A stretch of 37,331 nucleotides of DNA from contig JAQBNG010000234.1 in the NCBI GenBank assembly GCA_028288675.1, forward strand, positions 1 through 37,331, read 5' to 3'. Shown one piece after another: positions 28,379 to 32,772 of the stretch; positions within the stretch are counted from its first letter, which is position 1; each line of letters begins with the position of its first letter. The notes beneath the pieces are model-generated. The model searched no databases. It saw only the letters and a list, made by a program, of their open reading frames with translations, and was not told the DNA's origin. The position numbers were made by a program, and so were the translations under genes. The stretch comes from Flavisolibacter sp. GTDB taxonomy: Bacteria > Bacteroidota > Bacteroidia > Chitinophagales > Chitinophagaceae.

Positions 28379-28406
28379 TTGCACACTCCCCTTTTACATA
28401 CCTTTG
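28379..28406 (+). promoter_or_regulatory. Bacteroidota-type promoter for ileS
   Basis: TACCTTTG (28399-28406) matches the -7 consensus TAnnTTTG, with a TTG (28379-28381) 17 bases upstream. The ileS ATG lies at 28440, giving a leader of about 30 bases. Confidence 0.55.
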
Positions 28407-28439: not shown

Positions 28440-31400
28440 ATGGCCAACAGATATAAAGAATTTAAAGGACTGAATTTGCCCTCCATCGAAAAGGATGTAT
28501 TGGAGCGATGGGAAAAGGAAGCAGCCTTTCAAAAAAGTATAGAATTAAGAGAAGGCGCCGAACCTTTTGTGTTTTACGAAGGTCCGCCAAGTGCAAATGG
28601 CCTGCCTGGGATTCACCATGTAATTTCAAGAACGTTGAAAGATATGGTGTGCCGCTATAAAACTATGCAGGGTTTTAAAGTAGAACGAAAAGGCGGCTGG
28701 GATACCCACGGCCTGCCAATAGAGTTAGGTGTAGAGAAAGAACTTGGTATTACAAAAGAAGATATCGGCAAAACGATTTCGGTAGAAGACTACAATCAAA
28801 AATGCCGCGAAGCTGTACTGCGATACAAAGACAAATGGGATGACCTGACCACCAAGATGGGTTATTGGGTTGACCTGCAGCATCCTTATATTACTTTTAG
28901 AAATGAATACATCGAAACACTTTGGTGGTGTTTGAAAGAACTTTATAACAAAGGATTGCTTTATAAAAGTGTTTCTATTCAGCCGTATTCTCCGGGTGCC
29001 GGAACAGGTTTAAGTTCACATGAGCTAAACCAGCCGGGCACTTATCGCGATGTAAAGGATACGAGTATAGTGGCAATGTTTAAATTGCTTCCGACGACAG
29101 TAGTTAGCGTTTCGAAAGAGATGGTCAAAATCCCTGCTGCAGCACTTGCTAAATATGGAAAGAATACTTTCAGTAATAATTTAATTGAAATAGCCGAAAG
29201 TGCTTGGGAGAGCAAGAGCGAAGAAGCTCAAGATGTTTTTCTTCTTGCTTGGACAACGACACCTTGGACACTACCCTCGAATCTTGGCTTGACCGTTGGA
29301 CGTGACATTGAATATGTGTTAGTCAAAACGTTTAATCCATATACTCATGGGCCGCAAAATGTAATTCTTGCCAAAGCGTTATTGAAAAAGTATTTCAAAC
29401 AAGAAGAGGAGAATGCGGATTATGAAAACTATAATGAAAAATCGAAGGTTTTACCTTGGAAAATTTTGGCAGAATTTAAGGGTAAAGATTTAGAAAACTT
29501 AGAATACGAACAATTGCTTCCTTACGAAGCATCATCGCTTCAGGCCATAAAAGAAATCACACCTGATGCAAAACCGTTTCGCATTTTGCTTGGCGATTTT
29601 GTAACCACCGAAGATGGCACCGGCATTGTTCATACCTCCCCTGCCTTTGGTGCGGATGACTATCGTATCGGCAAAAAATACAACATTGGTATTTTAACTC
29701 TCGTTGACAAGCAAGGAAAATTTGTTGGTGGCCTAGGTGAGTTTTCAGGCCGTTACATAAAGGACTATAAAAATGAAGAGCATTATATAGATGTGAACGT
29801 TGACATCTCTGTAAAACTAAAAAAAGAAGGCCGTGCTTTTAAGGTAGAAAAATACGAACACAGCTACCCGCATTGTTGGCGCACCGATAAACCTGTTGTT
29901 TACTACCCGCTTGATGCCTGGTTTATTAAAACCACTGCTGTAAAAGATCGGATGGTTGAACTGAATAAAACCATTAATTGGAAACCCGCAAGCACAGGTA
30001 CCGGCCGCTTTGGCAACTGGCTGGAAAATATGGTGGATTGGAACCTAAGCCGCAGCCGTTACTGGGGTACACCACTACCCATCTGGAGAACAGAAGATGG
30101 AAAAGAAGAAATATGCATCGGTTCAATTGCCGAACTGAATGAAGAAATAAAAAAGGCAAGCCAGGTATTAGGTGGCGATGTGAATAAACATTACCTGCAT
30201 GATGGTATTTTGGATTTGCATAAACCCTATGTGGATGAAGTAGTTCTTGTTTCGGATAGCGGCAAACCCATGCACCGGGAACCTGACCTGGTTGATGTTT
30301 GGTTCGATAGTGGCGCCATGCCTTATGCGCAGTGGCACTACCCATTCGAAAACAAGGAGAAGTTTAAAGAAAATTTTCCTGCCAACTTTATTGCAGAAGG
30401 CGTTGACCAAACCCGGGGCTGGTTTTATACCCTTCATGCTTTAGGAGTGATGCTATTCGATTCGGTTGCTTATAAAACTGTTGTTTCAAATGGGCTGGTG
30501 CTGGATAAGAAGGGCGTTAAAATGAGTAAACGATTAGGGAATATTGTTGACCCCTTTAAAACCATTGAAGACTTTGGCGCCGATGCAACCCGATGGTACC
30601 TTATCACTAATGCATCTCCCTGGGATAATCTGAAGTTTGATAGTGACGGCATTAAAGAAGTGCAACGAAAATTCTTTGGTACGCTTTATAATACCTATCA
30701 GTTCTTCGCCCTTTATGCCAATGTTGATGAATTCACCTTTAAAGAAGAGTATATCGCAGTTGAAGAACGGCCTGAAATTGATCGTTGGATTCTTTCTTCC
30801 CTTCAAACCCTGATAAAAAAAGTAACTGCCGCGCTGGATGATTATGAACCTACAGTAGCCGGACGGTTGATAGAAGATTTTGTAGATGAGGGGTTGAGCA
30901 ACTGGTACGTAAGGCTTTGCCGCCGCCGGTTTTGGAGAGGGGGCTATTCTGCCGATAAAATTGCCGCCTACCAAACCTTATATGAATGTCTTGAAACCAT
31001 CGTTCGCTTAATGGCGCCTATTTCTCCCTTTTTTAGCGACGAGATCTTCATAACGCTAAATTCCGTAACAGGTAAGCATGACCAGGCTTCGGTTCATCAT
31101 ATCCTGTTTCCAACTCCCAATGAAAAGATCATTGACCAGTTACTGGAAGAAAGAATGTTAGCTGCAAAGGAAATTTCCTCTCTCATTCTTTCATTACGTA
31201 AAAAAGAAAATATTAAAGTGCGCCAGCCCTTGCAACGAGCTTTAATTCCTGTTTTTAATCTTTTGATGGAGCAGCAATTTAGAAAAGTGGAAGATTTGAT
31301 TAAAGCTGAGGTGAACATTAAAGAAATTGAATACCTCACCGATACGGAAGGCTTCATTAAAAAGAAGATGAAACCCAACTTTCCTGCCTTAGGAAAAAAG

Positions 31401-31883
31401 CTTGGTCCAAAGATGAAACTGGTATCGGAAATGCTTCAAAAATTTTCGCAACACGAAATTTCTTTATTTGAAAAAGAAGGCAGATATTCATTGCCCCTTA
31501 ACGATGAGTACGTTGAATTAACCTTAAGTGAAGTGGAAATTACCAGCGAAGATATTCCGGGATGGTCTGTAGCCAGCAAAGGTCCTTTGACCGTTGCTTT
31601 AGATATAAATATCACCCCGGAATTAGAACAGGAAGGAGCAGCCCGTGAGTTTGTGAACCGGATCCAGAAAATAAGGAAGGACAGTGGATTTGAAGTAACC
31701 GACCGGATTGACGTGAAAGTGGCTGCAAGCAATGGTATAGCAGAGTCTTTGGGTAAATATAATAGCTATATTTGCGCCGAAATTCTGGCAGATAAGCTGG
31801 AGATTACATCAACGATTGTAGGTGGCATTGAGATAGACGTTAATGACAACGCACTGAAAGTCATCGTAATAAAAAAAGGGTAA
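28440..31883 (+). CDS. ileS: Isoleucyl-tRNA synthetase (type 2-like)
   Basis: IleRS charges tRNA-Ile and edits misactivated valine. I start it at the ATG at 28440 (1147 aa), dropping 12 unconserved residues. The signature normally reading HIGH is GIHH here (Gly57-Ile58-His59-His60, in ANGLPGIHHVISR). The second motif is KMSKR (694-698). The CP1 editing domain carries FLLAWTTTPWTLPSN. The long length and C-terminal anticodon region fit the eukaryote-like IleRS2 group, which is associated with mupirocin resistance. An extra segment of about 45 residues lies before the WTTTPWT motif. The DksA-like gene follows after 7 bases. Confidence 0.96.
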   Translation: MANRYKEFKGLNLPSIEKDVLERWEKEAAFQKSIELREGAEPFVFYEGPPSANGLPGIHHVISRTLKDMVCRYKTMQGFKVERKGGWDTHGLPIELGVEKELGITKEDIGKTISVEDYNQKCREAVLRYKDKWDDLTTKMGYWVDLQHPYITFRNEYIETLWWCLKELYNKGLLYKSVSIQPYSPGAGTGLSSHELNQPGTYRDVKDTSIVAMFKLLPTTVVSVSKEMVKIPAAALAKYGKNTFSNNLIEIAESAWESKSEEAQDVFLLAWTTTPWTLPSNLGLTVGRDIEYVLVKTFNPYTHGPQNVILAKALLKKYFKQEEENADYENYNEKSKVLPWKILAEFKGKDLENLEYEQLLPYEASSLQAIKEITPDAKPFRILLGDFVTTEDGTGIVHTSPAFGADDYRIGKKYNIGILTLVDKQGKFVGGLGEFSGRYIKDYKNEEHYIDVNVDISVKLKKEGRAFKVEKYEHSYPHCWRTDKPVVYYPLDAWFIKTTAVKDRMVELNKTINWKPASTGTGRFGNWLENMVDWNLSRSRYWGTPLPIWRTEDGKEEICIGSIAELNEEIKKASQVLGGDVNKHYLHDGILDLHKPYVDEVVLVSDSGKPMHREPDLVDVWFDSGAMPYAQWHYPFENKEKFKENFPANFIAEGVDQTRGWFYTLHALGVMLFDSVAYKTVVSNGLVLDKKGVKMSKRLGNIVDPFKTIEDFGADATRWYLITNASPWDNLKFDSDGIKEVQRKFFGTLYNTYQFFALYANVDEFTFKEEYIAVEERPEIDRWILSSLQTLIKKVTAALDDYEPTVAGRLIEDFVDEGLSNWYVRLCRRRFWRGGYSADKIAAYQTLYECLETIVRLMAPISPFFSDEIFITLNSVTGKHDQASVHHILFPTPNEKIIDQLLEERMLAAKEISSLILSLRKKENIKVRQPLQRALIPVFNLLMEQQFRKVEDLIKAEVNIKEIEYLTDTEGFIKKKMKPNFPALGKKLGPKMKLVSEMLQKFSQHEISLFEKEGRYSLPLNDEYVELTLSEVEITSEDIPGWSVASKGPLTVALDINITPELEQEGAAREFVNRIQKIRKDSGFEVTDRIDVKVAASNGIAESLGKYNSYICAEILADKLEITSTIVGGIEIDVNDNALKVIVIKKG

Positions 31884-31890
31884 CAACTGT

Positions 31891-32772
31891 ATGGCGACAA
31901 AAAAGCTAGCTCCAAAAAAGGCAGCCAGGCCTGTACAAAAAGCGCCGGTTAAGCCAGCTGCTAAGGGCAAAGGCAAACCTGTTGCGTCAAAAAAAGCCGC
32001 ACCGGCTCCTAAAAAAGCGGTTGCCGTAAAAAAAGGAACTCCGGCAAAAACGCCTGCAAAGAAGGCTGCTGCAAAGGCGCCGGTCAAAACTACTAAATCG
32101 CAACCTGCAAAAGCAGTTGCAAAATCCACACCCAAAACACCTCACAAATCTATGCCCGCTACAAAAAAACAAGAGATAAAAAACACAGCTCCGGAACCGG
32201 CAAAAAAGCCGGTAGTTGCCGCTGCCACGCAGCAAACTGCAAAAACAGCTACAAAGCCTTTGGAGAGTAAGCCTGCCCCAAAAGAGCCGGCTAAACCTGC
32301 AAAAGTTGTTATCCCAAAAACAAGTACAGATAAAAAAATTAAATACGAACCGGATTTCACCCGCTCTGTATTAGACGCTCAGAAAGGAGTGGAAAGCACT
32401 CATACTATGCGATATAGTGATGGAGACTTAGGGGAATTCAGAGACCTGATCAATAAAAAGCTTGAGGTTGCCAAGAAGGAACTTGCTTACTTACAAAGCT
32501 TAATTACCCGTAAAGATGAAAGCGGCGACCTGGATGAAGGACGTTACATGACCATGGAAGATGGAAGCATGAGCATGGAAAGAGAGCAATTGAGCCAGAT
32601 GGCCAGCCGCCAGATCCAGTTCATTGATCATTTGGAAAAAGCCATTATGCGTATTGAAAACAAAACGTATGGTATTTGCAGGGTCACCGGCAAACTGATA
32701 GACAAAGCCCGCCTTCGTGCCGTGCCTCATGCTACTTTAAGCATAGAAGCCAAGCAAATGATGAATAAGTAA
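31891..32772 (+). CDS. DksA/TraR-like protein with histone-H1-like Lys/Ala/Pro-rich tail
   Basis: The 293-aa protein has two very different parts. Residues 1 to about 150 are low-complexity Lys/Ala/Pro/Thr repeats (PAKKAAAKAP type), like the basic tails of histone-H1-like bacterial proteins. Residues about 172-293 are a TraR/DksA-type domain: MRYSDGDLGEFRDLINKK, a coiled coil, then KTYGICRVTGKLIDKARL and PHATLSIEAK. Only one cysteine (Cys263) remains of the usual four-cysteine zinc finger, as in many Bacteroidota members. DksA-like proteins act in the secondary channel of RNA polymerase; the tail could bind DNA or RNA. It follows ileS by 7 bases, so the two are likely co-transcribed, and has its own terminator. 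Confidence 0.85.
   Translation: MATKKLAPKKAARPVQKAPVKPAAKGKGKPVASKKAAPAPKKAVAVKKGTPAKTPAKKAAAKAPVKTTKSQPAKAVAKSTPKTPHKSMPATKKQEIKNTAPEPAKKPVVAAATQQTAKTATKPLESKPAPKEPAKPAKVVIPKTSTDKKIKYEPDFTRSVLDAQKGVESTHTMRYSDGDLGEFRDLINKKLEVAKKELAYLQSLITRKDESGDLDEGRYMTMEDGSMSMEREQLSQMASRQIQFIDHLEKAIMRIENKTYGICRVTGKLIDKARLRAVPHATLSIEAKQMMNK

Follow-up and report, generated by a model that had tools for sequence, protein, structure and literature searches.

What does it mean for a bacterium when its isoleucyl-tRNA synthetase (IleRS) carries Gly-Ile-His-His where the class I signature HIGH is expected, and should such an organism resist mupirocin? The question is raised by an ileS gene in the window (the whole stretch of 37,331 nucleotides analysed, contig JAQBNG010000234.1 of a Flavisolibacter sp., Chitinophagaceae). 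A first-pass annotation had read the signature at residues 57-60 as HIGH with its first and third residues exchanged, taken the enzyme for type 2 (IleRS2) and predicted intrinsic mupirocin resistance. Direct translation bears out both the numbering and the exchange: in the frame from the ATG at 28440, the DNA at 28608-28619 is gggattcaccat, with the codons GGG ATT CAC CAT for Gly-Ile-His-His, and GIHH occurs only once in the whole 1147-residue product. The ATG start matches those of relatives and was preferred to the TTG at 28404 at which the listed open reading frame (1159 aa) opens. NCBIfam identifies the product as an isoleucine--tRNA ligase (TIGR00392, 1020.2 bits, with the cut-off at 621.4), and it has the Pfam domains tRNA-synt_1 (class I core), Anticodon_1 (anticodon-binding domain) and, at the C-terminus, DUF5915; its features are collected in Table 1. 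The stretch 29022-29264 (IleRS residues 195-275, in the CP1 region) runs 32 residues beyond the median length of 150 aligned rows.

Table 1. Features of the ileS locus, in window coordinates
Feature	Position	Strand	Basis or remark
ileS, isoleucyl-tRNA synthetase type 2 (IleRS2)	28440..31883	+	1147 residues; TIGR00392, Pfam domains, tree
Ser51, in the column of E. coli Tyr59	28590..28592	+	alignment
Gly57-Ile58-His59-His60, non-canonical class I signature replacing HIGH	28608..28619	+	direct reading; kept in relatives
HYPFE, residues 633-637, mark of eukaryote-like IleRS2	30336..30350	+	motif as given in the main text of PMC4861432
KMSKR at residues 694-698, the second class I signature, ending in Arg instead of Ser	30519..30533	+	direct reading
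DUF5915, C-terminal domain, residues 951-1145	31290..31874	+	Pfam
Gene with dksA/traR zinc finger, downstream of ileS	31891..32772	+	same neighbour type in Riemerella

HYPFE, Tyr59 and NKIL are the marks that tell IleRS1 from IleRS2 according to the main text of PMC4861432, where Tyr59 of E. coli IleRS is a determinant of tRNA-dependent pre-transfer editing. The window protein has HYPFE, has no NKIL, and has a serine in the Tyr59 column. HYPFE is absent letter for letter from 21 of the 80 Bacteroidota loci that we compiled (the best 80 of at least 583, retrieved with patterns derived from aligned GxHH sequences and leaning towards close relatives) and from 32 of the 57 loci fetched from other relatives. 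The C-terminal region of IleRS2 is described as being without the zinc-binding motif of IleRS1 (PMC10485003, legend to Figure 3); the window protein ends in DUF5915 and matched no zinc-finger family of Pfam, so the IleRS2-like C-terminal layout proposed at first pass stands. For a tree we chose 60 IleRS rows from 182 IleRS frames: the window protein, 30 more from Bacteroidota, 14 from a wider draw of the phylum, four type-2 enzymes with a canonical motif, two other GxHH enzymes and nine of type 1, the type labels denoting which of two query proteins a row resembles more. In this quick search, run without bootstrap, with the motif columns kept in and a midpoint root for drawing, a branch with 100% SH-aLRT support split type 1 from type 2 (nine IleRS1 among the 60 rows) and left the window protein on the IleRS2 side, where it adjoins a relative of its own genus (G004) within a group holding Niastella, Puia and Sediminibacterium. 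Three long-branch rows were flagged, the window protein not among them, and one row from a metagenome-assembled genome titled Chitinophaga pinensis (L147) fell outside the Chitinophagaceae group, beside Mucilaginibacter. The first-pass annotation had staked its type assignment on a tree of this kind, and the placement among IleRS1 that would have told against it did not occur. The window protein shows none of the IleRS1 characters HXGH, Tyr59 and tree position, and with HYPFE and the lack of Tyr59 and NKIL in agreement with the tree, we class it by sequence as an IleRS2.

Two further active-site positions accompany the signature. Among aligned rows with more than 1100 bits against the window protein, serine occupies the Tyr59 column in 150 of 150, a set in which that protein itself appears three times; it is a third state of the Tyr59 position and suggests that tRNA-dependent pre-transfer editing would be weak or lacking. 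The second signature reads KMSKR in 75 of the 80 Bacteroidota loci (best 80 of at least 583) and KMSKS in the other five. KMSKR is not bound to GxHH: it occurs as well in the HHGH copy of Pseudoalteromonas on pTML1, and of the 18 distant GxHH rows 15 read KMSKS and three KMSKT.

The spread of GxHH within the family, a point on which the first-pass annotation had sought clarity, extends to every sampled genome in which an IleRS is visible. Among 147 Chitinophagaceae genomes, each at least 90% complete, the G/AXHH pattern was matched in 145, and the two others (G068 and G096) also had no IleRS at E<=1e-60; the reversed pattern, used as a control, gave one match among those listed (G138). The assignment of these genomes to Chitinophagaceae follows from the named relatives that fall into their clade of the tree. 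The pattern ANGxxHxGH, used in the search for IleRS1 and shared by MetRS, was matched in 142 of the 147. The match in the genome of the window is MetRS, the 12 loci of this pattern that we opened (L062-L073, four from the family search and eight from a second search) include no IleRS, and in the four genomes with two matches each (G008, G018, G023 and G065) the extra ones lie in chance frames of 34-96 codons. We see no sign of an IleRS1 elsewhere in the family by this pattern, which would not detect an IleRS1 whose flanking residues differ. One genome (G132) holds, besides a full ileS on C1, a second, short GIHH IleRS-like frame of 205 codons (L092) on a 5.6-kb contig (C10), matching the first 77 residues; this could be a broken IleRS copy.

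Beyond the family, GxHH was read in all 80 Bacteroidota loci (77 GIHH and three GVHH; best 80 of at least 583), and the 137 loci fetched from relatives, comprising these 80 and the 57 others, gave 134 GIHH and three GVHH. In a draw of 296 genomes from the phylum a strict pattern was matched in 192; it missed some groups that have Thr-Val-Asn-Gly for Thr-/Ser-Ala-Asn-Gly before the same motif, and with Ala or Val allowed before Asn all 296 were matched, these being pattern matches and not all confirmed IleRS. The backward control of the relaxed pattern gave one match among those listed, in the genome of the window itself; one genome (G315) matched the relaxed pattern yet had no IleRS by protein search at E<=1e-60, and an extra pattern match in another (L093 in G148) is not an IleRS. 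The claim for Bacteroidota rests on the 80 loci and not on this draw, because most genomes of the draw have an IleRS only about 50% identical. The 18 distant IleRS from the draw that we read have GIHH (11), GVHH (six) or GLHH (one). GIHH is also found in an Acetoanaerobium (a Clostridia record, L203), so GxHH reaches beyond the sampled Bacteroidota. An IMG/VR contig (L094) holds a near full-length GIHH IleRS2 (query residues 17-1131, 41% identical); this may be a misfiled bacterial contig. GxHH is shared across the family and by every Bacteroidota IleRS that we read, and so does not mark this organism out; since the motif is found throughout the sampled relatives, this strain inherited it and did not evolve it as an adaptation of its own.

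These distributions bear on two ways in which the motif might mislead. That an ordinary HIGH enzyme only looks like GIHH through an error of sequencing or frame has a negligible probability and nothing in its favour, because across the 137 loci the codons of the motif differ by synonymous changes (four Gly codons, and both His codons at each His) while the residues hold, which refutes an error and sets GIHH far from chance, and because GxHH recurs in every one of the best 80 of at least 583 Bacteroidota loci. The gene might instead be an acquired, mobile, MupA-like resistance copy beside another, housekeeping IleRS, much as staphylococci carry IleRS2 genes on plasmids. We regard this as very improbable. 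Protein and family searches of the genome (4.74 Mb, completeness 99.82%) gave a single IleRS above the family cut-off, and a second IleRS was rejected, as the four further IleRS-family matches, all far below the cut-off, are ValRS (in two pieces, at the end of contig C4 and the start of C143), LeuRS (C219) and MetRS (C209). The plasmid-type copies that we read have other signatures, HTGH in MupA and HAGH in the copy from a Sutcliffiella plasmid, neither of them GxHH, and the window protein scores only 787.4 bits for MupA and 771.1 bits for MupB against a curated cut-off of 1900 bits. It groups in the tree with its own family and the relative of the same genus, and the gene downstream of ileS bears a dksA/traR zinc finger as does its counterpart in Riemerella. 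The ileS gene of the window thus serves housekeeping and is no mobile extra copy.

A side observation concerns additional domains in synthetase genes and other genes. The LeuRS frame of the same genome, outside the window (L098, G000:C219:7957-9426), holds an in-frame DUF559 domain (PF04480, E 2.5e-30, with a weak match, below the cut-off, to a restriction-endonuclease-like family) after the first catalytic part and extends to the end of its contig. The ends of the insert are short inverted repeats in the DNA (CCTCACCCCCGACCCC... and ...GGGGTCGGGGGATGAGG), the left end being translated as LTPDPSPRGEG. Of the 18 genomes of the genus, four, this one included, have a LeuRS match that spans the insert, and in the remaining 14 the best match ends short of it. 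In the LeuRS of G592 the DUF559 domain separates the catalytic part from the editing domain. For G586, one of the four, the search reports a stop where the match begins, ahead of the open frame containing DUF559. We fetched ten other DUF559 places from relatives, most of them picked for a long open frame. All seven that were scanned with Pfam share their frame with a host domain (L210, L221-L223 and L225-L228 being these and a LeuRS from a relative): DUF559 is internal to, or between parts of, a DEAD helicase, a tryptophan dioxygenase, an M23 peptidase and GcpE, at the C-terminus of a uroporphyrinogen decarboxylase, at the N-terminus of an amino-acid kinase, and with a methionine synthase, where the frame crosses a run of 11 N and is unsure. 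By their flanks, two more (L220 and L224) look like additional instances of the dioxygenase and the peptidase case; one (L229) has no evident host. From these positions DUF559 looks like a mobile element landing in frame in coding genes; in the literature searched, the word occurs in the text of papers and never in a title or abstract. The window IleRS has no DUF559 insert, and none of the linker words searched occurs in the window. Another domain, PBECR1 (a Barnase/EndoU/colicin-like nuclease), stands in frame in the IleRS of two genomes of different genera (L188 in G051 and L189 in G044), at residues about 585-697 and in the same loop as window residues 549-592. There were no other PBECR1 matches at E<=1e-5 in the 147 family genomes, none in IleRS among 178 genomes of a draw from the class, in a search in which no control matched, and none in the window IleRS.

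What the signature does is known from related enzymes. The best match of the window protein in the PDB is 8c8w (823.5 bits), followed by 8c8v (815.5) and 8c8u (814.6); these are the GVHH mutant (8c8w) and the wild type (8c8v and 8c8u) of Priestia megaterium IleRS2 (PMC10485003), and the alignment with 8c8w pairs pgihh with pgvhh. Brkic et al. (2023, PMC10485003) described the G/AXHH swap and the millimolar mupirocin Ki that goes with it, with kinetics and structures; this is what the first-pass annotation had referred to as extreme resistance of GxHH enzymes. By the main text and Table 1 of that paper, G/AXHH occurs in 86 of 379 IleRS, every one of type 2; the wild-type ALHH IleRS2 of Deinococcus radiodurans has a mupirocin Ki of 6.6 mM, which drops 823-fold, to 8.1 uM, when ALHH is changed to HVGH; and conversion to GVHH takes the Ki of canonical IleRS2 from 0.20 to 35 uM in T. 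thermophilus and from 1.08 to 460 uM in P. megaterium. Canonical IleRS2 were measured there as less mupirocin-sensitive than IleRS1, for which the P. megaterium enzyme has a Ki of 0.29 nM. Both GVHH conversions cut activity (up to 10-fold in kcat or KM), and the swap in a type 1 IleRS abolishes activity. The IleRS2 of S. griseus, which bears the same non-canonical motif (PMC10485003), has a Ki of 10 mM (PMC4861432).

The mechanism given in PMC10485003 turns on the position of the signature in type 2 enzymes. The IleRS2 motif is displaced from the adenine, leaving room for a histidine at the third position; because of this displacement, the third-position His of GxHH fits beside the adenine and stands in for the first His of HIGH, its imidazole taking over that role with a nitrogen at the equivalent place. 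In models this His also clashes with mupirocin, and Ki rises to the millimolar range. That the window protein works in the same way is inferred from its having the same motif and type. The motif alone does not fix how large the effect is, because the engineered GVHH enzymes reach only 35 and 460 uM. According to the main text of PMC4861432, the IleRS2 of the mupirocin producer P. fluorescens likewise has a millimolar Ki, so there may be routes to a high Ki besides GxHH; that text also reports that an EG pair is not conserved in S. griseus IleRS2 and proposes that its loss adds to resistance. The window protein retains the pair (E653-G654), which calls for caution. Having KMSKR rather than KMSKS could alter the loop important for mupirocin binding.

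With GxHH in the sole type 2 IleRS and the published effect of the motif, the organism is expected to be intrinsically and highly mupirocin-resistant, a well-founded prediction by analogy with the enzymes measured; since no second IleRS stands above the cut-off, the predicted-resistant enzyme would be the only target of mupirocin. We hold with high confidence that this is the housekeeping, sole IleRS of a Chitinophagaceae bacterium, of type 2, naturally GIHH and expected to confer such resistance. The GIHH swap itself is real, was correctly interpreted at first pass, and is already explained by published work. Titles and abstract openings in the literature yielded nothing on mupirocin MICs for Bacteroidota.

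Why the motif arose is a different question from what it does now. GIHH may have been fixed in an ancestor for catalytic or structural reasons unrelated to mupirocin, with resistance as a by-product, a reading to which we give slightly less than an even chance and which is compatible with the expectation of resistance above. GxHH occurs in lineages from gut, soil, marine and freshwater settings (by record names); in Bacteroidota it goes with Ser in the Tyr59 column and mostly with KMSKR; and the ileS on plasmid pTML1 of Pseudoalteromonas sp. SANK 73390, which we take to be a thiomarinol producer, has HHGH. Against a by-product origin stands the loss of activity in both laboratory GVHH conversions noted above, by which the swap is not obviously useful on its own. 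For the phylum as a whole we lean, with some reserve, towards GxHH IleRS2 being the ancestral and sole IleRS of essentially all Bacteroidota, fixed together with Ser at Tyr59 and mostly KMSKR, so that the phylum would be hyper-resistant as a block and probably reliant on CP1 editing, the swap being ancient and not a recent response to the drug. Such fixation would be at most a modest extension of known work: the word "bacteroid" is absent from the main texts of PMC10485003 and PMC4861432, though the tree of 379 may contain the phylum, and no title in the literature searched concerns the IleRS type across Bacteroidota.

GxHH in the only IleRS of a genome is a one-motif check by which sequence alone would foretell mupirocin resistance. 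Should this hold across Bacteroidota, a "mupirocin-resistance gene" label on ileS would there denote the normal inherited state and not acquired resistance. It also opens to test whether the swap arose as a response to the drug or predates it and had some other cause.

Set beside known systems, the window protein shares its function and class I core with the IleRS1 of E. coli and others. It differs from them in its signature (HXGH in all nine type 1 references read) and in falling on the other side of the tree; E. coli IleRS1 has a Tyr59-type residue and NKIL and lacks HYPFE, the opposite of what is seen here. The canonical IleRS2, such as staphylococcal MupA and the pTML1 copy of Pseudoalteromonas, are of type 2 like the window protein, but all four that we read have an HXGH motif (HTGH in MupA, HHGH in the pTML1 copy, HAGH or HIGH in the others) where it has GIHH, and the two natural ones in Table 1 of PMC10485003 have Ki values of 0.20 and 1.08 uM. 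Closest are the G/AXHH IleRS2 (ALHH of D. radiodurans, the S. griseus enzyme, and the GVHH mutant in 8C8W), in which Gly or Ala, a hydrophobic residue, His and His stand for HXGH; GIHH at residues 57-60 follows that pattern, so that enzyme type and the exchange of first and third residues are shared, and the window protein differs from the enzymes of Brkic et al. (2023) in its Bacteroidota lineage, its KMSKR and the Ser in its Tyr59 column.
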